Of a DNA stretch of 64,000 bases, positions 22,855 to 58,800 are shown piece by piece. Position 1 is the stretch's first letter. Each line of letters opens with the position of its first letter. The stretch is from Gaertneriomyces semiglobifer. Lineage: Eukaryota > Chytridiomycota > Chytridiomycetes > Spizellomycetales > Spizellomycetaceae. The stretch is taken from positions 20,790 to 84,789 of the forward strand of contig JAHLKF010000041.1 in NCBI GenBank assembly GCA_025558075.1. Direction: 5' to 3'. Below the pieces are notes generated by a model. That model was not told the DNA's origin, did not search any database, and saw only the letters and a program-made list of their open reading frames with translations. A program made the translations under genes and the position numbers.

Positions 22855-22926
22855 CGAGCTTACCAGGGATCGAACCTGGAATCTCCTGATCCGTAGTCAG
22901 GCGCCTTCCCATTTGGCCATAAGCCC
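22855..22926 (-). tRNA. tRNA-Arg (ACG)
   Basis: On the minus strand the gene starts GGGCTTA at 22926 and ends TAAGCTC plus a discriminator G at 22855. The acceptor stem is fully paired with one G-U. The anticodon loop is CTACGGA (anticodon ACG, decoding CGT/CGC after inosine formation). The T arm contains GGTTCGATCCC. There is no intron and no encoded CCA, as usual for eukaryotic nuclear tRNAs. Confidence 0.93.
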
Positions 22927-34372: not shown

Positions 34373-34676
34373 TGAACCCAGCTGCTAATGTCATTGGACC
34401 TTTGCACTCCTACCAACTTGGGTGTTTCTCTGTGCGTCAACGTCAGTCCCTTCCTCTCCCTAGCATTGTTGACAGGCGTGGGAAAATGCGTATGGGCACC
34501 TGTGTATGCAAGGTAACATTGCCGAAACCTCCCACACATGTCCTAGTGCATATCAAGGATCGTATCAGGAAACACTCTGTACCGCCAATGCTATGTACAT
34601 GGTTGAATTCTGTCTTGTCATGCTCATTAATTGCTGCCTGTGAATACAGTCTATCTGATGGAAAATGTCAAAAATG

Positions 34677-34749
34677 TGCGAAGTGTGAGAATCGAACTCA
34701 CGACCTTAGGATTATGAGACCTACGCTCTACCGACTGAGCCAACTTCGC
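34677..34749 (-). tRNA. tRNA-Met (CAT), elongator type
   Basis: On the minus strand GCGAAGT at 34749 pairs with ACTTCGC at the 3' end (34684-34678), with discriminator A at 34677. The anticodon loop is CTCATAA (anticodon CAT) with the T31/T39 mismatch typical of eukaryotic elongator tRNA-Met. The T arm contains GAGTTCGATTCTC. There is no intron and no encoded CCA. The arm differs from initiator tRNA, so this is not the copia primer tRNA. Confidence 0.93.
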
Positions 34750-46500: not shown

Positions 46501-47947
46501 CTCGGTTGTCAAGTTCAGCACACTGCGTCTGCTTCTCGCGCTCGCCCAGCTCTTCCGGCTCGAGATCCATCAAATGGATGTCCTCACGGCATTCCTGAAC
46601 GCTGTAATCGACACCAACATTCATATGCAACTCCCCGACGGGTCGTACGTTAAACTCCTACGTTCGATTTATAGGTTAAAGCAGTCACCGCGCTTATGGA
46701 ACCAAACCCTTGACACTTATCTGAAGTCCGTCGGTTTCCAACCCACGGTTCTCGACACCGCGCTGTACATTCGTCCCGTTGCCGGCGGCACACCTGACAT
46801 CATTGCCCTGTACGTCGATGACCTCACCATCTGCTCCACGACGGTCCGCATGCAGTCCATCAAGGACAGTCTTGCCCGGCGTTTCGCAACGGAGGACACG
46901 GGGGAGATTTCGTACATTTTTGGCATTGAAGTCACACGCACTGCTGACACACTGACACTGAACCAAGGCAAATACACTGATGACATGCTCCTTCGCTATG
47001 GCCTTGCCAATGCCACATCTGTCACTGTTCCACTGTCGCCCAGCTTATCGCTTGTCGCTGCCACCGACGACGACGTCCTGGCTGGTCAAAAAATTTATCA
47101 GTCAATAATCGGCAGTTTGATGTAGCTTACCATCGCTACACGGCCCGATCTCGCAATCGCAATCTCCAAACTGTCCCGCTTCTTGTCGAAACCAACTGAA
47201 CAGCATCTGAGTGCTGCTCGCCGTGTCCTCCGCTATGTAAAAGGCACTCGCAACCTCAAGCTCTTGTATGGCCCTGGAGACGGGGGAGTATCCTCTCTAC
47301 ATGGTTATTCTGACACTGATTTCGCAGCAAATGCTGAAAATCGACGCTCAACGTCGGCGTACCTTTTCCTGCTGAACGGAGGCGCTATTTCGTGGGCATC
47401 TAAACTCCAGAACTGCACAGCACAATCTACAGCAGAAGCGGAATACATTGCATTAGCTGAGGCCGCCAAAGACGCAGTCTGGGTCCGTCGACTGATGATC
47501 GCACTCCTCGAGCATTTTCCACGCAATGACACCCAGAAGTCCATCCTTCCCGGCACTGAACCCGGCACATATGGTGCTCTAACAGTGTACGAGGACAACC
47601 AGGCAGCCATCAAACTTGTCAACAACCCAGTAAATCACAACCGCACTAAACACATCGATCTCCGTCATCACTTCATCTGCGAAAAGGTCTATCAGACCTA
47701 GGAAATCGCCCTCTGCTACGTGTCCACTAACGACCAGCTTGCTGACGGACTTACCAAGGCCCTAGCAGCACCTGCTCTGAACAGCATGCTTCCCCGCATG
47801 GGTCTCCGTACGTCCGACACTGCTGACAAGCTGCTGACAGTGTCTGACAAGGTGCTGAAGGTGCCTGACACTGCTGACAGGTTGCTGACAATGCCTGACA
47901 CTGCTGACAAGCTGCTGAAGGTGTCGAACACTGAAAATAAGCACTAA
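43529..47947 (+). pseudogene. Copia-1 Gag-Pol polyprotein, three nonsense codons
   Basis: A single frame of 1,473 codons is interrupted by TGA at 45383-45385, TAG at 47123-47125 and TAG at 47699-47701. Copia-2 has sense codons at the first two (Arg, Tyr) and shares the third; copia-3 has Gln there. Domains in order: Gag with a CCHC knuckle (CDICTQGTHYAHDC); protease active site IALDSGATHSI; integrase zinc region (LWHLRFGHPS...CVGC) and DDE core (GRIHSDVQSVE, CDNGGEYLS, YSPAQNGIAERY); chromodomain-like segment; reverse transcriptase with ALYVDDLTI; RNase H (GYSDTDFAANAENRRSTSAY, STAEAEYIAL). After RNase H a tail of ~8-residue repeats (SDTADKLLTV type) ends NTENKH. Confidence 0.9.
45998..46170 (+). 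other. Chromodomain-like segment in copia-1 polyprotein
   Basis: Encodes DDEVFEVEYIGDERIAPTGE, then HQYFVKYVGYSEPEWNDAFN, then LHGLPVVDEYFARKHQ. It aligns with the chromodomain pattern EVEKIldhR...YlVKWkGY....tWEp..nL...lieeF, including the aromatic positions of the cage (F/Y, Y, Y). It is located between the integrase core and the reverse transcriptase. Confidence 0.68.
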
Positions 47948-47997
47948 ACAGCTGCTGAAGGTGTCGGGCAGTTTGCAGGAAATGTCGTGCATGCACC

Positions 47998-48007
47998 GAG
48001 GGGGGAG
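47998..48007 (+). promoter_or_regulatory. Polypurine tract of copia-1
   Basis: GAGGGGGGAG directly before the 3' LTR, the expected plus-strand primer. Conserved before the LTRs of copia-2 and copia-3. Confidence 0.8.
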
Positions 48008-48285
48008 CGTTGTAAGGGGGTCCCGGTGACATACACGTCATAGGGATACCCTAACCAGGGCGCGCGCTATGACATGGGTTCTTATCCATATCAGCACATA
48101 CACGTGCGTCATGTGCCCATGAGCACGTGACCCATGTGACTGGATGCCCTAACACCCGACACGTGACCTTTTCCGTCGGGTGGTTCTCTTATGCCGGGCA
48201 TTCAACTGTACTCTTAGAACCTTAGACTTGAATACACATAAGCTTATTAGAAGGATCAGAGCATCAGCAGGATCCCTCTGCAACA
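48008..48285 (+). repeat. Copia-1 3' LTR
   Basis: 278 bases, highly similar to the 5' LTR with several substitutions and single-base indels, so the insertion is not brand-new. Confidence 0.9.
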
Positions 48286-49101
48286 GCTAAAACCTAAGAA
48301 AAAACTATGGCAGGACGTTGCTTACATTATTGATTTACTTGTTGCCAGTTCCTCGGCCGTCGACAAACACACGGCTCTCAGTCCCAACACGGAACGGGAT
48401 TTGGATGCGAAGTACCACCATCAGGTACTTTCGATTTTGGGAGGAACTGTAACGTCCCATTATGGGGAGACTGAGTCAAGGTCGTCCCGATGGCGCCGTG
48501 TCAAGGCGGCGGGCTTGCTCAACCTGCCCACCAGCCGCATACGGGGCCAGTATGTTGATTTCATGCTGGTTGACCCAACAATTCGCAGCGATGACACGTG
48601 GGCCTTTGGGCCTTGGAGTTATCCGAAGTCGCCAACGTAGGCTCCAAGCGAAACCAAGATGCAAAGAAAGTTAGGGACAAACTCGGGCTGCAGATCCTCC
48701 TGAGAGACATAGCCTACAACATTGGCAAGAAAGTGCTTGATTGTAGGGAAGGGAGTTCGGCAGCGGCCGGCGAACTGGCAAAACTACCGTTGCCAGGCAT
48801 GGGCATCAATGTCATGCGGTACCAACTGATTGCCAATGTATATGTTGGAGAGGGACTGTATGCAAGTATACAGCTTGATGATGTGGATGCGCCTGTGTAC
48901 AATTGCACCACTTTCGGCGACAAAGTGCGCCGTTTGGCGCAGGTGATGCTCGCTTATCGCGAATTTCTTCGACGGGTATTGCAGGACGTTCGATACCTGT
49001 TAGACCCCTCCGCCCCTCTACAGGAGGAAGACTATATTTTTGGCGACAATATCGAATGGAAATGCCATTCCGTAGAACGAATGATCAAGAGGGAAAAGTG
49101 A
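48286..49101 (+). pseudogene. Truncated, frameshifted host-like gene of unknown function
   Basis: Open frame from the LTR border (LKPKKKLWQDVAYIIDLLVA) through YVDFMLVDPTIRSDDTWA. Near 48600-48612 a duplicated 'gggcctt' shifts frame, after which LELSEVANVGSKRNQDAKKV and KLGLQILLRDIAYNIGKKVL continue to a possible splice donor AAAGTGAGT at 49096. The 5' part is cut off by copia-1. The layout (E-x-S after a short strand, then K...D..KL) resembles uncharacterised PD-(D/E)XK-like proteins that are expanded in early-diverging fungi, but this is a weak impression. It is a fragment and unlikely to be functional. Confidence 0.5.
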
Positions 49102-49521
49102 GTTGTGTTTGTGTAGTGCTAGTGTAGCCAATTGCCGCAAGTCACAACACTTGTACGGCCAACGATGTAGACTATGGTACCCTGATACGATGAGGCGTAT
49201 GGGGTAACCCAAAATGTTATACATGCATACATTACCTATCTGTGCGGTAATTTCTCATCATCCCTTTTGCTATCATCATTCACCTACAAAGTCTCCCTCA
49301 TTGTCTCTAGATTGAAAAAAAAAAACGCCGCGGTCGTTGTACCCCAACAGCAAGCTGGCGAGGGCATCAAGCAGATCCTTGACATATATAGAGTCGGTAT
49401 CGCCGTTATGGTCACTACAATGGTAACCCTAACCCTAACATCGATGCGTGATATTTTTCAGTTACTTTATCGAGTGCGTAATCTTAGAAGCACTGTATTC
49501 ACAGTATACTTGGGAAAGCCG
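49102..49521. other. Junction region with telomere-like repeat
   Basis: Contains 'aaccctaaccctaac' at 49424-49438, two and a half CCCTAA units, and a frame (49267-49521) that runs into the next ORF through a TAG at 49522-49524. Marks the border of the virus-like cluster. Confidence 0.5.
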
Positions 49522-49524
49522 TAG

Positions 49525-50334
49525 TCTGATGGACATAAAAAAGGAAATTCGGAGGGACGTTGTCTTCCAAAGGATGATGTGGCGTATGAAAATCTACAGA
49601 GGCAAATACTTCTGGAGATAACAGCGAACAATTCTCGGTCATTCAAGCAAATGTTCCGGGCTTTTTGTAAATGGATGAGCATTGAAATATTGCCAGGCAG
49701 TGTTGACTTGATGGATGAAGACAAGGAAACGATAAGAGATTTATATGATTCGTCATTGAACATGTTCTCTTATGACAACATTGCTGACATAACCAAAGAC
49801 GACATCGGCATTATAGAAGACCGAATTCGCAAAGGGCTTGTAGTACCATCATCGGCATTGTTGGAAATAGAGAAGTATGAATTTTCAAAAAGGTTAAAGC
49901 CGGATATGGAAAGGGAAGAAATATCTTTTTTGTGGAATAATCATCGTCATATGGTCTATGGATTGGATAGATTGAACAAAACAAGGAAGGCTATGACATT
50001 ATACGCTGGCAGGGAGTATAATCCTGCAGCGCGTATAATATATGATTTCTACGAGGCCAACAACCTGAACTTTGACGATAGCATTCCCCAAAATGCAGTC
50101 TGTCATACTTCATTTGCCGACATTCAAAAGTGTTTTTATTTTCACAATAAACCAACCACTTATCGAATGGACCTCTACTCCAAAATGCTGAATATATATT
50201 TTAAGAGCAAAATTCTAACTAAAGATTATGACGCATCAATGCATGGGAAAAAATATACATGGGTTACGGATACTCATACCATTTCGTATGTACTCAGTAA
50301 AATGAGAACCGAAGAAGAACTTTTCGTTCTGTGA
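49525..50334 (+). CDS. Unknown protein of the virus-like cluster (possible nonsense codon at 49522)
   Basis: The frame follows TAG 49522-49524 and reads about 269 codons to TGA at 50334. Without an ATG near the start, the gene is probably 5'-truncated or interrupted by that TAG, since the preceding frame (to VFTVYLGKP) is open. Features: KDDVAYENLQRQILLEITAN, FRAFCKWMSIEILPGSVDLM, and a C-terminal half rich in Tyr, Lys and Asn (HTSFADIQKCFYFHNKPTTY). No catalytic motif is visible. It could be the C-terminal part of a replication protein, by position only. Confidence 0.5.
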   Translation, partial: SDGHKKGNSEGRCLPKDDVAYENLQRQILLEITANNSRSFKQMFRAFCKWMSIEILPGSVDLMDEDKETIRDLYDSSLNMFSYDNIADITKDDIGIIEDRIRKGLVVPSSALLEIEKYEFSKRLKPDMEREEISFLWNNHRHMVYGLDRLNKTRKAMTLYAGREYNPAARIIYDFYEANNLNFDDSIPQNAVCHTSFADIQKCFYFHNKPTTYRMDLYSKMLNIYFKSKILTKDYDASMHGKKYTWVTDTHTISYVLSKMRTEEELFVL

Positions 50335-50623
50335 AGGGATGATGAAGATGTGTCTGATACTGAATAAATGTCCGGTATATAACTTTAAATACGTGTATTT
50401 CTTCTTTATCACTGTCAGGAACGAGCATAAAGTCTTTTAATTCACGACGTTGCTGGTAACATGGGATGCAATAGGGTCTTCCGTGCATCTTTGGTATAAT
50501 AGTCTGGCAAGTGTCGGTTTTGCATTTTTTGCATCTGTTGGGGATGACGAGTTTGCCTTCAGCATCATACTGCGGAGTATAAACTGGGAAGGTTTCTTTG
50601 GAGCGTGGCTTGTTTGATTGCAT
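50294..50623 (-). CDS. Zinc-ribbon-like protein of the virus-like cluster
   Basis: 109 residues from the ATG at 50623. Two CxxC knuckles, CKKC and CIPC, are separated by ~20 residues (TDTCQTIIPKMHGRPY between), a treble-clef or zinc-ribbon arrangement. The N-terminus is hydrophilic and the C-terminus is rich in aromatic and basic residues. Its 3' end overlaps the end of the preceding plus-strand gene by 41 bases. A late transcription or nucleic-acid-binding role is possible but unproven. Confidence 0.58.
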   Translation of the reverse strand: MQSNKPRSKETFPVYTPQYDAEGKLVIPNRCKKCKTDTCQTIIPKMHGRPYCIPCYQQRRELKDFMLVPDSDKEEIHVFKVIYRTFIQYQTHLHHPFTERKVLLRFSFY

Positions 50624-50704
50624 CTGTTTTGTTTCTTAAATATATTCAAAGTGAATAAAAAGTGGGGCTGCGGTTGAACTGATTGAGTAATATCTCGGCT
50701 ATTG

Positions 50705-50712
50705 TATAAATA
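50705..50712 (+). promoter_or_regulatory. TATA-like box before the 50730 gene
   Basis: TATAAATA 18 bases before the ATG; a very short leader, in keeping with viral genes. Confidence 0.4.
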
Positions 50713-50729
50713 CGTTTCTAAGTAATAAG

Positions 50730-50987
50730 ATGTTCTCTTTAAACGATGAATACTTTGCAACACCAAAAGAACTGGTGCAAGAGACATGTTTACGGTTGTT
50801 CGAATCGCTGAAGCGGAAGGCTCAAGAACAATTTATTGAGGAACTCGAAGGACATGAAGATCTGGTGGATGTGGGTACATTTAAAGTATTAAAGTGGATG
50901 GTTTTATTCAATAAATTATCCGACAAATATAAAGACGATATCAAACAAGAACCATCTAAGAAAGGCAAAAGCAAAGGCAAAGCCTAG
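50730..50987 (+). CDS. Small unknown protein of the virus-like cluster
   Basis: 85 residues from the ATG at 50730. Mostly alpha-helical by appearance (KELVQETCLRLFESLKRKAQ), with an acidic middle and a Lys/Gly-rich C-terminus (KKGKSKGKA). Its stop overlaps the stop of the convergent ATPase gene by four bases, which supports real coding use of both. No family recognised. Confidence 0.5.
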   Translation: MFSLNDEYFATPKELVQETCLRLFESLKRKAQEQFIEELEGHEDLVDVGTFKVLKWMVLFNKLSDKYKDDIKQEPSKKGKSKGKA

Positions 50988-51715
50988 TTGCCGGGTTTGC
51001 CTTTAATAAGTACGTTTTCGTTATCTGGTGATTTAAGATTAATGTAAAGAAACGAATATGGTTCTTTTGTTGCCCGATCAGCAAGGTCGATAAACTTCTT
51101 CTCGGTTAGGTGACATCTTAACTCGGGTGCGATCTTTTCATATTGCTTCATATTCAGTTGATAAAGAATGACATTCGTATTGTTGACTCGCTGCAACGGC
51201 GTCATTTGGAGTGTATCATGGAAGGAGCACATTAAGGAAATGCCGCTGTGTCTCGCTCGAGAGTACAGAGTGTCGAGCATTTCTTTGATACCACTTGATA
51301 TTTCTTCATGCTTCTTGAGTTCTTTCTTAGGATCATTCCCCGTTTGTCGAGCGAGGATGCCGTAATCATCAATAACGATTAGAATGTGTTGTCGAGTCTT
51401 GTCTCGTTTGTAGAGTTCTCTCTGCCTTTCGAAGAGGGTATTGAGGACATGGTTCGAGACCAAATAGGAGATATATACATTGTTCTTCTTCTTAAGACTG
51501 CTCCAAATTGGATCCTCTATCGATGGTGTGAATATACATACGGCTGAATACGCTGGAGCGAGTTTCTCAATAAGGTTCACTTGACATGTAGTCTTACCAC
51601 TTCGACTTGAGCCGACTATTGATAGTACGAAGAATTTTTTGGGAAAGCCGTCAGGGGTCTTATCGATAATTTTGACTTCGTTTTCTTTCGGGATCTTGAC
51701 CTTGTGGATATACAT
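50984..51715 (-). CDS. Packaging ATPase, FtsK-HerA superfamily (A32-like)
   Basis: 243 residues from the ATG at 51715. Walker A is VGSSRSGKTT near residues 32-42, preceded by the hydrophobic strand FFVLSI. Walker B is HILIVIDDYG near 110-120. The conserved Gln/Arg region follows as LYSRARHSGISLMCSFHDTL. This arrangement, with an N-terminal beta-strand entering the P-loop at residue ~30 and a total length of ~240, matches genome-packaging ATPases of polintons, polinton-like viruses, virophages and NCLDV. It would pump viral DNA into the capsid. No introns. It is head-to-head with the penton-like gene. Confidence 0.85.
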   Translation of the reverse strand: MYIHKVKIPKENEVKIIDKTPDGFPKKFFVLSIVGSSRSGKTTCQVNLIEKLAPAYSAVCIFTPSIEDPIWSSLKKKNNVYISYLVSNHVLNTLFERQRELYKRDKTRQHILIVIDDYGILARQTGNDPKKELKKHEEISSGIKEMLDTLYSRARHSGISLMCSFHDTLQMTPLQRVNNTNVILYQLNMKQYEKIAPELRCHLTEKKFIDLADRATKEPYSFLYINLKSPDNENVLIKGKPGN

Positions 51716-51739
51716 TTCGGTTTAATTTCTTGTCTCTTG

Positions 51740-51748
51740 TTAATATAA
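51740..51748. promoter_or_regulatory. Shared TATA-like element between ATPase and penton genes
   Basis: TTAATATAA on plus reads TTATATTAA on minus. It sits in the 54-base gap between two divergent start codons and could serve both. Confidence 0.4.
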
Positions 51749-51769
51749 GGAGCAACATATTTCGTCATC

Positions 51770-52516
51770 ATGTACCGGGAGTATATATTGAATACTGCTA
51801 TCGTTGGCGACTCGGATAATGCTACGTTTTTTATATCACCACCGCAAAGTATATATGCATTTCATGTGATATCAGTCAACTTTATCCAGAGTTGGGATGC
51901 GATGAATACGACTAACAGTACTGTCCTCTTTGCAGAAATGGGGGACTCGACACCCAGAAAGGCGTCGATTGTAACTGGCCATTATAACGCATTCAACATT
52001 GGGGCAGCAGTAGCGTCGGCATTAACAAACGGTGGTACACAGACGTATACGTGCACATATGATGAACGAAGCCGTAGATTAACAATTTCGGCAACAGGTG
52101 GGAAAGACTTTAAACTTATCGAGGGCGCTAGGGGAAGCACCGCTTTTTTGCAACTAGAAATGTCGAAAGGAAGTGAATCTGGATATGGTCAATGGTTTAC
52201 TTTGCCTTCTCCGTTAAACCTGTCAGCAAGCCAGCCGATTCTGTTGACATCGAGAACTCTGCAAATGTCGAATGGAATCACATATGTCTCAGGAATAAAC
52301 AGTGACATGAATGTAGCGGCCTGTATAACACCCGATAGTTTCAACGATGTTGTTTCTTGGACGAATCCAAGTGACAAGATGTTCAACACAGGAGAAATCT
52401 CGATGAGTTTGATTGATATCCAATTGTTTAACAGTCAGACAATGCGACAAATTCGAACAACCGCTCCGATAGTCGTAGTTCTTGGCGAGTACGACGAACC
52501 TGCGGATTTGCTTTGA
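51770..52516 (+). CDS. Penton / minor capsid-like protein, single jelly-roll type
   Basis: 248 residues from the ATG at 51770. It is beta-strand rich, with few charged residues and many Ser, Thr, Asn. The order of blocks follows penton proteins of polinton-like viruses: an N-terminal SPPQSIYAFHVISVNFIQSW strand pair, then GHYNAFNIGAAVASALTNGG (the G-x-Y-xx-xxL amphipathic helix after a strand), then YTCTYDERSRRLTISATGG, and then a long loop and LLTSRTLQMSNG. The C-terminal strands are ISMSLIDIQLFNSQT and IVVVLGEYDEP. This is recognition by pattern, not by alignment. It lies 54 bases from the ATPase and 40 bases before the Lys-rich gene. Confidence 0.68.
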   Translation: MYREYILNTAIVGDSDNATFFISPPQSIYAFHVISVNFIQSWDAMNTTNSTVLFAEMGDSTPRKASIVTGHYNAFNIGAAVASALTNGGTQTYTCTYDERSRRLTISATGGKDFKLIEGARGSTAFLQLEMSKGSESGYGQWFTLPSPLNLSASQPILLTSRTLQMSNGITYVSGINSDMNVAACITPDSFNDVVSWTNPSDKMFNTGEISMSLIDIQLFNSQTMRQIRTTAPIVVVLGEYDEPADLL

Positions 52517-52556
52517 GGATTTTTTCTTGATAATGGGTAAAAGAATCCATTAGAAG

Positions 52557-53099
52557 ATGGAAAACTTACAGGGGAATTCGATCGCGGTAGCGGATATAGA
52601 GCCAAAAGAAACACCAGTACCGGACCCAGTACACGATTCAGTACATAACGATATTTCAACACCTGGTGAGGATATTGCAAAACCAAAGGTGAAGAGGAAA
52701 ATGACTGAAAAGCAGAAGGCGGTGCTCGAGGCGGCTCGAGAGAAGGGCACAGCCAGATTACGTGAAATGTCTAAGCATAGGGCTCAGGAAGATAAGCGAA
52801 AGAGGCTAAAGGAAGCAAAGAGGTTGCTTGAAGAGGATAAGACGAGAAAAAAGGCAGCAAGGTTAGCGAAATCAAAAAAAGCCGCAGATAAAGAAACGAA
52901 ACCAAAGGCATCGAAGCCTGCGAAGAAACAAGCAAAGGTCTCAGTTGAACCTGAAGAATCGAATATGCAACCGAATATGCAACCGAATATAAAGATACAC
53001 CCGACTAAACCAATTGCTAAACGTGTGTACGATGAGCAGGCTATTGTGATGCTTACAAATCCATACGATATAATGTTTGGGAACACATACAGAAGGTAA
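52557..53099 (+). CDS. Lys-rich coiled-coil protein of the virus-like cluster
   Basis: 180 residues from the ATG at 52557. The N-terminal ~40 residues are acidic and Pro-rich. Residues ~45-135 are a highly charged helix rich in Lys, Ala, Glu and Arg (EKQKAVLEAAREKGTARLRE and following). Two repeats of NMQP and a short hydrophobic C-terminus (IVMLTNPYDIMFGNTYRR) follow. Such basic proteins in viral morphogenesis modules may condense DNA. The gene ends five bases before a retroelement LTR, so its natural 3' context is lost. Confidence 0.58.
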   Translation: MENLQGNSIAVADIEPKETPVPDPVHDSVHNDISTPGEDIAKPKVKRKMTEKQKAVLEAAREKGTARLREMSKHRAQEDKRKRLKEAKRLLEEDKTRKKAARLAKSKKAADKETKPKASKPAKKQAKVSVEPEESNMQPNMQPNIKIHPTKPIAKRVYDEQAIVMLTNPYDIMFGNTYRR

Positions 53100-53104
53100 G
53101 TTTC

Positions 53105-53562
53105 TGTAGCGGGTTTAGACTTCCGCTAGTAATAAGTAGAAGTATATAGACGCGCTAGTACCAGGGTTAGAGCTATCTTAGTCAGCCAAGTCATGTGATA
53201 TAATTTCTGTTGTCGCTTAAGTCAGCGGGGCCTATAAGAGGACCGCACGGACTTATGCGACGAAGATCAGGCAGACATAGATCTAGGAAGAATACAAGAG
53301 GTTCTACTCAGATCTATAAGTCCCGTCGCTTCTGAACGAGTAAGACATCCGACAGTTCTAAGACCAGTGACTGATCATCCTGCCCCCTTAGAATCAGCAG
53401 TCTTATAAGTTCTCCGACGCCTCTCATCCCTAGCCCTGCAGGCATCAACACATCTATTATACCGCCGGCGGACACTTAGACGTCCGGCTCTTAACAAAGG
53501 AGATCATTAAGAGCGGAGTAATCCTCTTGGAAGCCCTACAGTCCGATCTTAATCCTTCTACA
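53105..53562 (+). repeat. 5' LTR of the Gag-CCHC retroelement
   Basis: Bounded by TGTAG and CTACA, 458 bases, directly followed by a primer-site-like TGGTGGAGAATCG. The second LTR is outside the window, so the boundary rests on the inverted ends and the PBS. Confidence 0.6.
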
Positions 53563-53633: not shown

Positions 53634-55385
53634 ATGCAGAACCCTATAAACCCTCGGATCGATTCCGAGCACGGCAACAATAACCGACTTGTACAAGAAG
53701 TGGGAAGCTTAGGAGTCGGTGATTCCGGCGTACGGTATCCCTCTCCCATAGCTGTTGAAAGAGACCCTCTCGATCACCCGCATGCCGCGCATATACCGGC
53801 CGATAGATTCGGACCCGCGGCGCTTCATTCGAATTCCAGGCCTAGAAGCAATTCGTTACCTTCCAACGCCCGCATTCCCGGAGCATGGCGTCCTAATTGG
53901 AACAGGATGGGACCGGTCGATTCGGTCCGCATTCCCTTCAACGTCCGCACGAGCCATCAATTCTATAGCGAAACAGATGAAAGCTCAAGGGATTCTTCTC
54001 TCGACCGCACAGGTCAGAGAGGTCAAGGCCCTCCTCGTGGCTTGCATCATCAGCAAGCATCAGTGCACTTTCAAGGTTTTTATGAACCGACTCGGGCCGA
54101 GCCTGAGGTCGTGCAACCAACTTATACGGCGCAGTCATCGGCCAACATACCGACCACCCACGAAGGCAGAGTTCTCGAGGCTCTACTAGCTCAGCTACAG
54201 GAGCAAGGGGAGGTCATCGCCAACATTAAGCAAGAAATAGCGGAGCTCCGACAACAGAAACACCAGTCCAGAGAGCCCTCCGTACCACAGAGTTACAGGA
54301 GCACCTATACGCCCAGCAACCCTGCATATCCACCGTCCACGGTTCCCGTGGAGCAGTATGGAACCTCCGCGGTCCCACGCCGGTACAAGGCAATTACCGA
54401 AGCGGACACCGGGCCGTTTAAAGGAGACGACAGTCCTTACATATATGACTGGCTCGAGGAAGCGCTTGGCGCACAAGGTCGCTTCCTAGCAACAGACCAG
54501 GAGATGGTCATGCTTATTCCCGCTATCTTCCCACCGAAGAGCCCAGCCAGAGTGTGGTTCCAACAACTACCAATGCGAGCAAAAGCCGAATGGACCTGGC
54601 AGCAATGGCAAACCGAGTTACAAGCGGAATTTGGGGACGAGACGCGTAGGAATCTCGCTAAGACAACTTACGAGCGCTGCACCCTGGATCCACAGGCGCA
54701 CAGCTCTTTCTTAGCGTATATCGACCAGAAGTTGCTGCTCAGGGCTCAAGCATTCGGCAACGAAGCCGATTTACGAGCCCTGAAGGATCGACTCCTTCAA
54801 GACATGCTAGACTACCTCCCGGGGCGAGTTCAATTAGCCGCCCAAAGTGCCCGGGTATGTGCTATACCGCAACTTAAATCCTTCCTCAAAAGGTATTTCT
54901 CCTCGCCGGAGGCCAAAAATGAGGACCCCAGTTACAAGCCTCGACGGACCGAAGAAGGGTCCAAGAGCCGAGACAAGCACAAGTCAAACAAGGACAAGGG
55001 CAAAGCCCAACCCCAGGCGGATGACTGCGCCAACTACCCTCAGGGTAGAGGACCGGCAAACCAGGATTGGAAAGGTCTGCCGAACCCGCGGAGGAAACCG
55101 CCGAACAACTGCCGAGAATGTGGCCACAGGCACTGGTTCAACTACTGCTTCAAGAACGCGAAGCGGGTCCATCCCGCTGACGGCGTCGGTGGCCCATACG
55201 GTAGACCGAAACCCAAGGACAAAGAGAAATCGTCCAGCCGCAAGGAAAAGACCTATTTAGTGGACGAAGATGACTCGTCGAGCGAGCACACATATTTGGT
55301 GCTGGCGAACGCTCCCAAGGTATTCTCCCTGGCAGATGCCGAAGGTTTCTGCCCGACAGGGTATTTTCAGAGCGTGTCCCACTAG
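53634..55385 (+). CDS. Gag protein of an LTR retroelement
   Basis: 583 residues from the first in-frame ATG at 53634. The N-terminal ~190 residues are disordered. A coiled-coil-like LEALLAQLQEQGEVIANIKQ leads to a Gag capsid region with the Retrotrans_gag pattern (PARVWFQQLPMRAKAEWTWQ, then QTELQAEFGDE). A Lys-rich linker precedes the zinc knuckle CRECGHRHWFNYC near residue 490. The frame stops at 55385; an overlapping frame continues from about 55360, compatible with a frameshift into Pol. Intact, so Gag could be made. Confidence 0.82.
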   Translation: MQNPINPRIDSEHGNNNRLVQEVGSLGVGDSGVRYPSPIAVERDPLDHPHAAHIPADRFGPAALHSNSRPRSNSLPSNARIPGAWRPNWNRMGPVDSVRIPFNVRTSHQFYSETDESSRDSSLDRTGQRGQGPPRGLHHQQASVHFQGFYEPTRAEPEVVQPTYTAQSSANIPTTHEGRVLEALLAQLQEQGEVIANIKQEIAELRQQKHQSREPSVPQSYRSTYTPSNPAYPPSTVPVEQYGTSAVPRRYKAITEADTGPFKGDDSPYIYDWLEEALGAQGRFLATDQEMVMLIPAIFPPKSPARVWFQQLPMRAKAEWTWQQWQTELQAEFGDETRRNLAKTTYERCTLDPQAHSSFLAYIDQKLLLRAQAFGNEADLRALKDRLLQDMLDYLPGRVQLAAQSARVCAIPQLKSFLKRYFSSPEAKNEDPSYKPRRTEEGSKSRDKHKSNKDKGKAQPQADDCANYPQGRGPANQDWKGLPNPRRKPPNNCRECGHRHWFNYCFKNAKRVHPADGVGGPYGRPKPKDKEKSSSRKEKTYLVDEDDSSSEHTYLVLANAPKVFSLADAEGFCPTGYFQSVSH

Positions 55386-55530
55386 AGGGGTTTAGCGGGA
55401 CACAGCGAACAGCTTCAACCCCGCAAACTACGTGGCTGGACAACCACGTACTCCTAGCCGAGCTAAGAGAACTTGAACAAAAAGAGAGCGACTTTCCACA
55501 GACAGTTGAAGAGCTCCGCAAGGTCGCCAC
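55368..55530 (+). pseudogene. Start of Pol of the Gag-CCHC retroelement, cut by copia-2
   Basis: In the frame shifted against Gag: VPLEGFSGTQRTASTPQTTW, then LDNHVLLAELRELEQKESDF up to the copia-2 border. It continues at 61527. Confidence 0.6.
55526..55530. repeat. Target site duplication of copia-2, left
   Basis: gccac, repeated at 61527-61531. Confidence 0.88.
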
Positions 55531-55806
55531 TGTTGCAGAGGATCCTGCTGAGGCTCTGGTCCTTCTAATAAGCTTATGTGTATTCAGTCTAAGGTTCTAA
55601 GAGTACAGTTGAATGCCCGGCATAAGAGAACCACCTGACGGAAAAGATCACGTGTCGGGTGTTAGGGCACCCAGTCACATGGGTCACGTGCTCATGGGCA
55701 CATGACGCACGTGTATGTGCTGATATGGATAAGAACCCATGTCATAGCGCGCGCCCTGGTTAGGGTATCCCTATGACGTGTATGTCACCGGGACCCCCTT
55801 ACAACG
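55531..55806 (-). repeat. Copia-2 3' LTR
   Basis: TGTTGCAGAGG at the left border; the right border is CAACG (expected CAACA). The polypurine tract complement 'ctcccccctcgg' follows. Confidence 0.9.
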
Positions 55807-58800
55807 CTCCCCCCTCGGTGCATGCACAACATTTCCTGCAAACTGCCCGACACCTTCAGCAGCTGTTTAGTGCTTATTTTCAGTGTTCGACACCTTCAGC
55901 AGCTTGTCAGCAGTGTCAGGCATTGTCAGCAACCTGTCAGCAGTGTCAGGCACCTTCAGCACCTTGTCAGACACTGTCAGCAGCTTGTCAGCAGTGTCGG
56001 ACGTACGGAGACCCATGCGGGGAAGCATGCTGTTCAGAGCAGGTGCTGCTAGGGCCTTGGTAAGTCCGTCAGCAAGCTGGTCGTTAGTGGACACGTAGCA
56101 GAGGGCGATTTCCTAGGTCTGATAGACCTTTTCGCAGATGAAGTGATGACGGAGATCGATGTGTTTAGTGCGGTTGTGATTTACTGGGTTGTTGACAAGT
56201 TTGATGGCTGCCTGGTTGTCCTCGTACACTGTTAGAGCACCATATGTGCCGGGTTCAGTGCCGGGAAGGATGGACTTCTGGGTGTCATTGCGTGGAAAAT
56301 GCTCGAGGAGTGCGATCATCAGTCGACGGACCCAGACTGCATCTTTGGCGGCCTCAGCTAATGCAATGTATTCCGCTTCTGCTGTAGATTGTGCTGTGCA
56401 GTTCTGGAGTTTAGATGCCCACGAAATAGCGCCTCCGTTCAGCAGGAAAAGGTACGCCGACGTTGAGCGTCGATTTTCAGCATTTGCTGCGAAATCAGTG
56501 TCAGAATAACCATGTAGAGAGGATACTCCCCCGTCTCTAGGGCCATACAAGAGCTTGAGGTTGCGAGTGCCTTTTACATAGCGGAGGACACGGCGAGCAG
56601 CACTCAGATGCTGTTCAGTTGGTTTCGACAAGAAGCGGGACAGTTTGGAGATTGCGATTGCGAGATCGGGCCGTGTAGCGATGGTAAGGTACATCAAACT
56701 GCCGATTATTGACTGATAAATTTTTTGATCAGCCAGGACGTCGTCGTCGGTGGCAGCGACAAGCGATAAGCTGGGCGACAGTGGAACAGTGACAGATGTG
56801 GCATTGGCAAGGCCATAGCGAAGGAGCATGTCATCAGTGTATTTGCCTTGGTTCAGTGTCAGTGTGTCAGCAGTGCGTGTGACTTCAATGCCAAGAATGT
56901 ACGAAATCTCCCCCGTGTCCTCCATTGCGAAACGCCGGGCAAGACTGTCCTTGATGGACTGCATGCGGACCGTCGTGGAGCAGATGGTGAGGTCATCGAC
57001 GTACAGGGCAATGATGTCAGGTGTGCCGCCAGCAACGGGACGAATGTACAGCGCGGTGTCGAGAACCGTGGGTTGGAAACCGACGGACTTCAGATAAGTG
57101 TCAAGGGTTTGGTTCCATAAGCGCGGTGACTGCTTTAACCTATAAATCGAACGTAGGAGTTCAACGTACGACCCGTCGGGGAGTTGCATATGAATGTTGG
57201 TGTCGATTACAGCGTTCAGGAATGCCGTGAGGACATCCATTTGATGGATCTCGAGCCGGAAGAGCTGGGCGAGCGCGAGAAGCAGACGCAGTGTGCTGAA
57301 CTTGACAACCGAGGCATAGGTTTCATTGAAATCAAGACCCGGGCGCTGGGTAAACCCGCGGGCAACAAGGCGGGCCTTGTACTTTTTTATGGAACCGTCC
57401 GGGTGATGCTTAATCTTGAAAACCCATTTAGAATCGATGGCATAAGCATCAGACGGCAAGGCGTCGACGTGCATCCACGTCTGATTGTCAAGTAAGGACT
57501 GGAGCTCTTTATCGATGGTCTGCTGCCAGGCATGACGGTCAGGTGAGCGCAGCGCTTGCTTATAAGTGACGGGTTCCCGGGCACGGGGGCCGTCGAGAGC
57601 GGATGCTACTAATGCCTTGACTGTAGGTGCAATTTCAGAGGATTGGTGCTTACGAGCAAAATATTCATCAACAACGGGCAAGCCGTGTAAGTTGAACGCG
57701 TCGTTCCATTCAGGTTCAGAATACCCGACGTACTTAACAAAATATTGATGCTCCCCCGTCGGTGCGATCCGTTCATCACCAATGTACTCGACTTCAAAGA
57801 CTTCATCATCGGAAACGTCGGGAGCAGGATCGACATAGTTGGTTTCATCGAACGTGACGTTGCGGGACCGATGGATGCGCTGTGTCAGTGGGTCATAGAA
57901 TCGATAACCCGTGGAGTCAATGTACCCGATTAGTTTCATACGCCGAGCCCGGGGTTCGAGCTTTTTGTGGGGACGGCGTTCGACAGGGATATGAACATAA
58001 GCGTCGGACCACAGGACCTGCAGGTTCGCCACGTCCGCGGGAGAACCATGCCATTTTTCATATGGAGCTGCATTTCCGATGGTGGGGGACGAGGTGCGCT
58101 GACGGAGGTAGTTGACAGCAACGACAATTTCCCCCCACAAGTGCTGAGGTATGTGACTCGACAGCATGACCGCCCGGGTTTGTGTCATTAACGTCTGAAT
58201 ATAACGCTCGGCAATGCCGTTTTGCGCGGGAGAGTATGCGTGGGTAGGACAAACCCGGGTGCCGTGCTGCCAGAGATCGCCGACAAGGGCATGACTCAGA
58301 TATTCGCCGCCGTTGTCGCATCGCAGTTCAAGGATTTTGCAGCCATGGAGGTTTTCAGCATGTTGGCGGAAAGCGTGGAATTCAGCGGGGACATCATGTT
58401 TATTTTTGATGATGGCGACATGTGCGTATCGAGTAAGTTCGTCGATGAACGTGACAAGGTACGGGCAGTGGTCGAGTGTGTCATGCTCGACTGACTGTAC
58501 GTCGCTGTGGATGCGACCAAGGACGCGGGTTGCAGGTTGGGGGTTGTCATGATTGAATGGAGAGCGTCGGGACTTAGCGACACGACACCCGACGCAGGTG
58601 GCAAGGGTGCCGAGCACGGAAATGCCGTATGCGCGAAGCGCTAGTTGGAGATTAGCAGTGCTCGGATGACCGAAACATAGATGCCAGAGCTTAAGAGTGA
58701 CAGAGTCGGCAGGACTAGAAGCAGGGTCAGAGAGAGCATGTGAAGTAGGCGGTATATCTTGTGAATAAACAGTGTCAGCAGCCGCAATCGCAGGTGTCGG

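Follow-up and report, generated by a model that had tools for sequence, protein, structure and literature searches.

The 64,000-nucleotide stretch of DNA analysed here (the window) comes from Gaertneriomyces semiglobifer, a chytrid of the order Spizellomycetales, and occupies C41:20790-84789 within an 84.8-kb contig, C-numbers denoting contigs of the genome and L-numbers loci extracted from it. Our subject is a compact cluster of six open reading frames (ORFs) within the window that encodes a viral-type DNA-packaging ATPase and a probable penton protein, and that belongs with a large set of polinton-like virus (PLV) elements in the same genome. All six ORFs are free of internal stops, and the initial annotation is correct on their strands and on the exact convergent overlaps, 4 bases long at 50984-50987 and 41 bases long at 50294-50334. 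The cluster is AT-rich, with a GC content of 0.39-0.42 in 2-kb steps against approximately 0.46-0.56 elsewhere in the window.

The gene cluster and its edges

The gene at 50984-51715 (minus strand) is intact and encodes an A32-type packaging ATPase of 243 amino acids that contains both of the motifs previously ascribed to it, VGSSRSGKTT and HILIVIDDYG. The protein matches the Pfam family Pox_A32 at 29.0 bits (cut-off 22.8) and the terminase family phrog_2666 with an E value of 8e-7. Homologues in the genome amount to 35 rows, or 31 places once pieces are merged, and a protein search found 17. The neighbouring intact gene (51770-52516, plus strand) encodes a 248-amino acid protein that is probably a penton, as suggested by its synteny with the ATPase and major capsid protein (MCP) genes and by a Foldseek search in which the first nine PDB rows were all capsid chains, the mavirus penton being nearest (E 9.8e-4). 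Those capsid matches are what would be expected of the single jelly-roll penton proposed for this protein, but the model behind them is of low confidence. Its homologues form 37 rows in the genome, merging to 31 places, and a protein search gave 7, the window's own included.

Three smaller genes accompany this pair. An intact gene for a lysine-rich protein of 180 amino acids (52557-53099, plus strand) has counterparts at 55-57% identity in the C35/C39-type elements described below, and a conserved 85-amino acid protein with no role assigned (50730-50987, plus strand) is found at 55-58% identity in L039, L041, and L017. The third, a cysteine-rich protein of 109 amino acids (50294-50623, minus strand), is 69% identical over 68 residues to its counterpart in L039 and 54% over 50 residues in L041; it had been called a zinc-ribbon protein, and the cysteine pattern is present, but the single Pfam row lies far below cut-off.

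Comparison of the window with the C35 element gave a nonsynonymous divergence (dN) of 0.06 and a synonymous divergence (dS) of 1.75 for the ATPase (ratio 0.034), a dN of 0.13 with saturated dS for the penton, and a ratio of 0.21 for the lysine-rich protein, all of these dS values being rough and close to saturation. The low ratios indicate that the lineages were functional while they diverged, and bear on nothing that happened after the window copy was cut. With ATPase and penton homologues at 31 places each, and an ATPase dN of 0.06 against a dS of about 1.7, the cluster is beyond what chance would assemble.

Both edges of the cluster are truncations. On the left, the initial annotation began at 49522, yet positions 49522-49524 are an in-frame TAG; the ORF listed at 49579-50334 (plus strand) lies in a frame that lacks a starting ATG and does not open until 49525. 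This stretch (49525-50334) is what remains of the C-terminal portion of an origin-binding-type superfamily 2 helicase, matching the C-terminal part of the helicase on C38 (L056) by tblastn (E 1.7e-10, 28% identity over 183 amino acids), with six more weak matches elsewhere in the genome. The L056 helicase itself matches Herpes_ori_bp (E 5.6e-7) and ResIII (E 8e-8) above cut-off. Because of the stop codon, the missing start, and a match confined to the helicase C-terminus, the left end is placed within a cut helicase gene; in a DNA search of the genome, the stretch 48280-50340 had no second copy. At the right edge, 53099 is the last position with homology to related elements, and at 53105 begins the long terminal repeat (LTR) of a retroelement (53105-53562, plus strand) that is repeated at many places in the genome, cuts the viral element, and stands where an MCP gene follows in relatives. 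None of the 39 MCP rows of the genome search lies on contig C41.

A telomeric insertion was considered, as suggested by CCCTAACCCTAA at 49427 and by several element copies at contig ends. It was dropped, since the repeat, judged by eye, translates as VTLTLT in frame with a helicase-like stretch, and since C2, C19, C30, C34, C39, and C47 all end at the same base within the element, as though the assembly had broken there.

The cluster is flanked by retroelements. A gag-like ORF of the same retroelement, typed by eye (53634-55385, plus strand), repeats at 91-96% identity on several contigs, and a piece that is Copia-like by eye (46814-48286, plus strand) has an inverted copy at 55530-57000 (99.05% over 1473 bases). 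Adjoining the relic is an ORF of 167 amino acids (48598-49101, plus strand) with no Pfam family, in DNA that has no second copy in the genome. Further off lie genes for tRNA-Arg(acg) (22855-22926, minus strand) and tRNA-Met(cat) (34676-34749, minus strand).

Related elements and their capsid genes

The check proposed in the initial annotation, a search for the same ATPase beside a double jelly-roll MCP, succeeded: such an MCP is found elsewhere in the genome next to the same ATPase and penton pair. Penton neighborhoods were read at 30 loci representing 28 distinct places, with approximately 1.5 kb on each side and 3 places outside the sample, and a gene for one of two MCPs, MCP-A or MCP-B, lies within that span at 24 of the 28. 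The exceptions are the window and three further places (C42:20602, C7, and C1), each of these three having an MCP-B homologue 9-10 kb away. MCP-B is nearest to the MCPs of giant viruses, with matches to virophage MCPs as well, and a protein search with it found 11 proteins. Outside relatives of the ATPase, penton, or MCP-B come from Powellomyces hirtus, Phlyctochytrium arcticum, Gaertneriomyces sp. JEL0708, and metagenome records.

The C35 element spans approximately 23.6 kb. Each of its ends is marked by a perfect palindrome of 54 bases (52 from TG to CA), and the flanking inverted repeats are identical over 1508 bases. It encodes a DUF5906 helicase, MCP-A, the ATPase, the penton, the lysine-rich protein, MCP-B, and a serine-rich protein, together with a chromodomain-bearing RVE integrase, a protein with a receiver domain, and a 1771-amino acid fibre-like protein with F5/8-type-C domains. 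The RVE integrase is present on both C35 and C39, whereas C39-type copies carry a Prim-Pol plus a DUF5906 protein in place of the DUF5906 helicase of C35. Several related copies have no stop in the genes compared. The fibre-like protein is encoded at L046:2715-8030, and its homologues adjoin the penton on C42, C7, and C1. The response-regulator receiver domain (L046:2136-2648, minus strand; E 9.5e-12) is odd for a virus. A tyrosine recombinase was suspected by eye at L043:1656-3185, L056:2407-3423, and L045:1783-2832, where Pfam gave no recombinase.

The perfect palindromes at the ends of C35/C39-type elements were located at L039:3234-3287, L044:629-682, L046:8953-9006, and L063:84-136, and each could be an opened hairpin end. 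Within C35:89656-117148 (L047:256-1600, L044, L046, and L052:35-1348), the C35 element is flanked by inverted copies of one sequence, 100% identical, and in its left flank a partial terminal palindrome lies outside the element; these inverted flanks are either a real fold-back or an assembly error.

The C35/C39 type carries two MCP genes; the two paralogues, located in one element at L041:3549-4763 and L041:6993-8240, apparently come from two PLV lineages. Between C35 and C39, dS is 0.19-0.26 in the ATPase, penton, and lysine-rich genes but 1.29 in MCP-B, and part of the C39-type MCP-A shares 76-77% DNA identity with elements on C21 and C24; at the protein level, the ATPase of those elements is only about 30% identical. 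The contrast in MCP-B dS, together with the likeness of MCP-A to the C21/C24 elements, suggests that capsid genes have been exchanged. The MCP-A match has an in-frame TAG in five C39-type copies and is in pieces in C2 and C59.

Insertion sites and nesting in a second family

The junctions of C39-type elements allow the insertion to be read at base resolution. The left end on C39 reads GCG CTCGT followed by TGTCAC, and the right end on C32 reads GTGACA followed by CTCGT ATCAAAG, while the uninterrupted sequence GCG CTCGT ATCAAAG occurs at C7, C1, and C38. Comparison of these junctions with the uninterrupted sequences gives a 5-bp target duplication, element ends of the form TG...CA, and three empty sites. 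On C35, the outer partial left end is preceded by ACGAT and the right end is followed by it, which fits the same 5-bp rule, though the left side is complicated by the inverted duplication.

The occupied target is a gene for a 332-amino acid penton-like protein (DUF5901 at 21.9 bits, below cut-off) of a second family of elements. A genome search with PF03175, the protein-primed-type DNA polymerase B (pPolB), gave 14 rows, some in open frames of more than 1000 amino acids, on C52 and C45 and on contigs of the second family (C47, C30, C19, C39, C34, C59, C2, C10, C1, and C38), with no rows on C35, C21, or C41. Because of the pPolB on its contigs, the second family looks like a polinton. The 338-amino acid protein encoded beside its penton-like protein found no relative in sequence searches, and a capsid role for it would be a guess.

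The same insertion, at one base of the penton-like gene, is seen on seven contigs (L039:1-3234; L048, L049, and L050). Across 9 kb, the element shows 100% identity among C19, C30, C34, C39, and C47, with C59 and C2 almost identical to these. The flanks of the seven insertions differ from one another by 0-3.7%, those of C59 and C2 being identical, and are equally near to empty sites, with C47 closest to the empty site on C1 (99.13%) and C39 to that on C7 (98.94%). This pattern could arise from repeated insertion at one base, from gene conversion, or from an assembly artefact in which a single insertion was attached to many repeats. Misassembly is somewhat favored by the shared stopping base of six contigs and by the sighting of just one right-hand junction to the target (C32). 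The fullest reading is that G. semiglobifer carries a recently mobile, capsid-encoding double-stranded DNA virus lineage whose linear genome is bounded by perfect palindromes of 52 bp (perhaps hairpins that have opened), and whose two-MCP hybrid inserted repeatedly into a resident pPolB polinton, always at the same nucleotide of its penton-like gene, one virus thereby inactivating another. Taken jointly, these propositions are rather unlikely to all hold.

A probable endogenous polinton-like virus and its relatives

The window cluster is very probably a truncated, immobile copy of an endogenous PLV of G. semiglobifer. Judged from protein families and gene order, the penton and the double jelly-roll MCP of intact relatives would form an icosahedral shell, into which the A32-type ATPase would pump the double-stranded DNA genome. 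Replication would be served by a helicase whose type differs between elements (Prim-Pol, DUF5906, or origin-binding). The chromodomain-bearing RVE integrase of the C35/C39 type would insert the DNA into chromosomes and so leave the 5-bp duplications observed. The window copy appears to keep only the middle of such a genome, its left part lost within the helicase gene and its right part cut by the LTR retroelement. The capsid-forming, polinton-like or virophage-like lineage proposed in the initial annotation is thus supported by the ATPase, the penton-like protein, and the double jelly-roll MCP, but the copy that prompted it, as a truncated relic without an MCP, would be unable to form capsids itself.

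Several observations weigh against this assignment. The penton model has a mean predicted local distance difference test score of 48.9 and a predicted template modeling score of 0.43, and PDB sequence searches, those with the penton family among them, found nothing relevant. Nor is the window penton clearly related to the 332-amino acid protein of the second family (hhalign, 13% and 46%). No named virus occurs among the homologues of the ATPase, penton, or MCP-B, and no relative emerged when viral contigs were scanned in three ways (with the ATPase, an MCP alignment, and an ATPase alignment). Best ATPase hits to non-viral FtsK/HerA proteins were among the refuting signs named in the initial annotation: the best relatives are chytrid-named or nameless, but the Pfam family that scores above cut-off, Pox_A32, is viral.

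Retention of a virus-derived gene set by the fungus to serve the host, for instance in particle production or in interference with infecting viruses, would agree with the open ORFs that follow the cut helicase and with strong purifying selection on the ATPase relative to its relatives. This is improbable, as that selection is between virus lineages and, with dS near saturation, predates the truncation, and the copy is flanked by retroelements and has no MCP. Less probable still is that the cluster represents a mobile element or linear plasmid of non-viral nature, with a HerA/FtsK-type ATPase serving its own transfer, a proposal that draws on the nameless relatives of the ATPase and the poor penton model, yet must contend with a Pox_A32 match above cut-off and a double jelly-roll MCP beside the same gene pair elsewhere. 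Contamination of the contig, or co-assembly of the fungus with a free virus, would account for the AT-rich composition unlike that of the flanks, but is most improbable for a fragment inside a long contig, adjoining a retroelement repeated on many others, with relatives in JEL0708, P. arcticum, and P. hirtus, in a genome that holds a 5-bp duplication and empty sites.

The family to which the endogenous PLV in the window belongs has the features expected of PLVs, namely a double jelly-roll MCP, an A32/FtsK-HerA ATPase, and a small genome with inverted repeats, the window fragment being without ends. C35/C39-type elements resemble Polinton/Maverick elements in their RVE integrase, A32-type ATPase, double jelly-roll MCP, penton, and inverted repeats, and differ in pPolB, which is found here on second-family contigs and not on C35, C21, or C41. 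Among virophages such as mavirus and Sputnik, the mavirus penton is the nearest to the window penton model by Foldseek, and mavirus is, like the C35/C39-type relatives, a small double-stranded DNA element with an RVE integrase. Mriyaviruses, as described in PMC11253617, likewise combine a short, giant-virus-like double jelly-roll MCP with a packaging ATPase in a small genome, but that genome is 35-45 kb, against 23.6 kb for the C35 element, which has an RVE integrase. The same paper gives an HUH endonuclease as common to all mriyaviruses.

The initial annotation held that nothing known from fungal chromosomes resembles this gene set, a claim overtaken by the literature: PMC7805220 reports one integrated PLV, with an MCP, in Spizellomyces punctatus, a chytrid akin to this one, and describes genes for an MCP, an ATPase, and a helicase in Allomyces macrogynus. 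Some integrated elements in that paper have target duplications of 5-7 bp, compared to 5 bp here, and S. punctatus has one element, compared to approximately 31 ATPase places in G. semiglobifer. A chitinase, present in 52% of the S. punctatus group according to the same source, was not recognized among the scanned proteins (not every ORF) of the elements here. No S. punctatus protein is among the 11 MCP-B matches. The literature matches listed, from a coverage outside which most subscription journals fall, included no PLV of Gaertneriomyces. Viruses of this general type are thus already known, but this fungus appears to hold unusually many of them.

According to a 2023 abstract, no double-stranded DNA virus infecting fungi was then known (PMC10640383), and a large PLV survey of the same year excluded fungi (PMC10120064). 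The main interest lies in the load of related elements in one fungus, and not in the relic copy of the window itself. PLV capsid modules seem to pass between lineages, and a PLV sits inside what looks like a polinton. With some thirty PLV places in a single chytrid genome, most of them with capsid genes, the existence of capsid-forming DNA viruses in fungi becomes directly testable.
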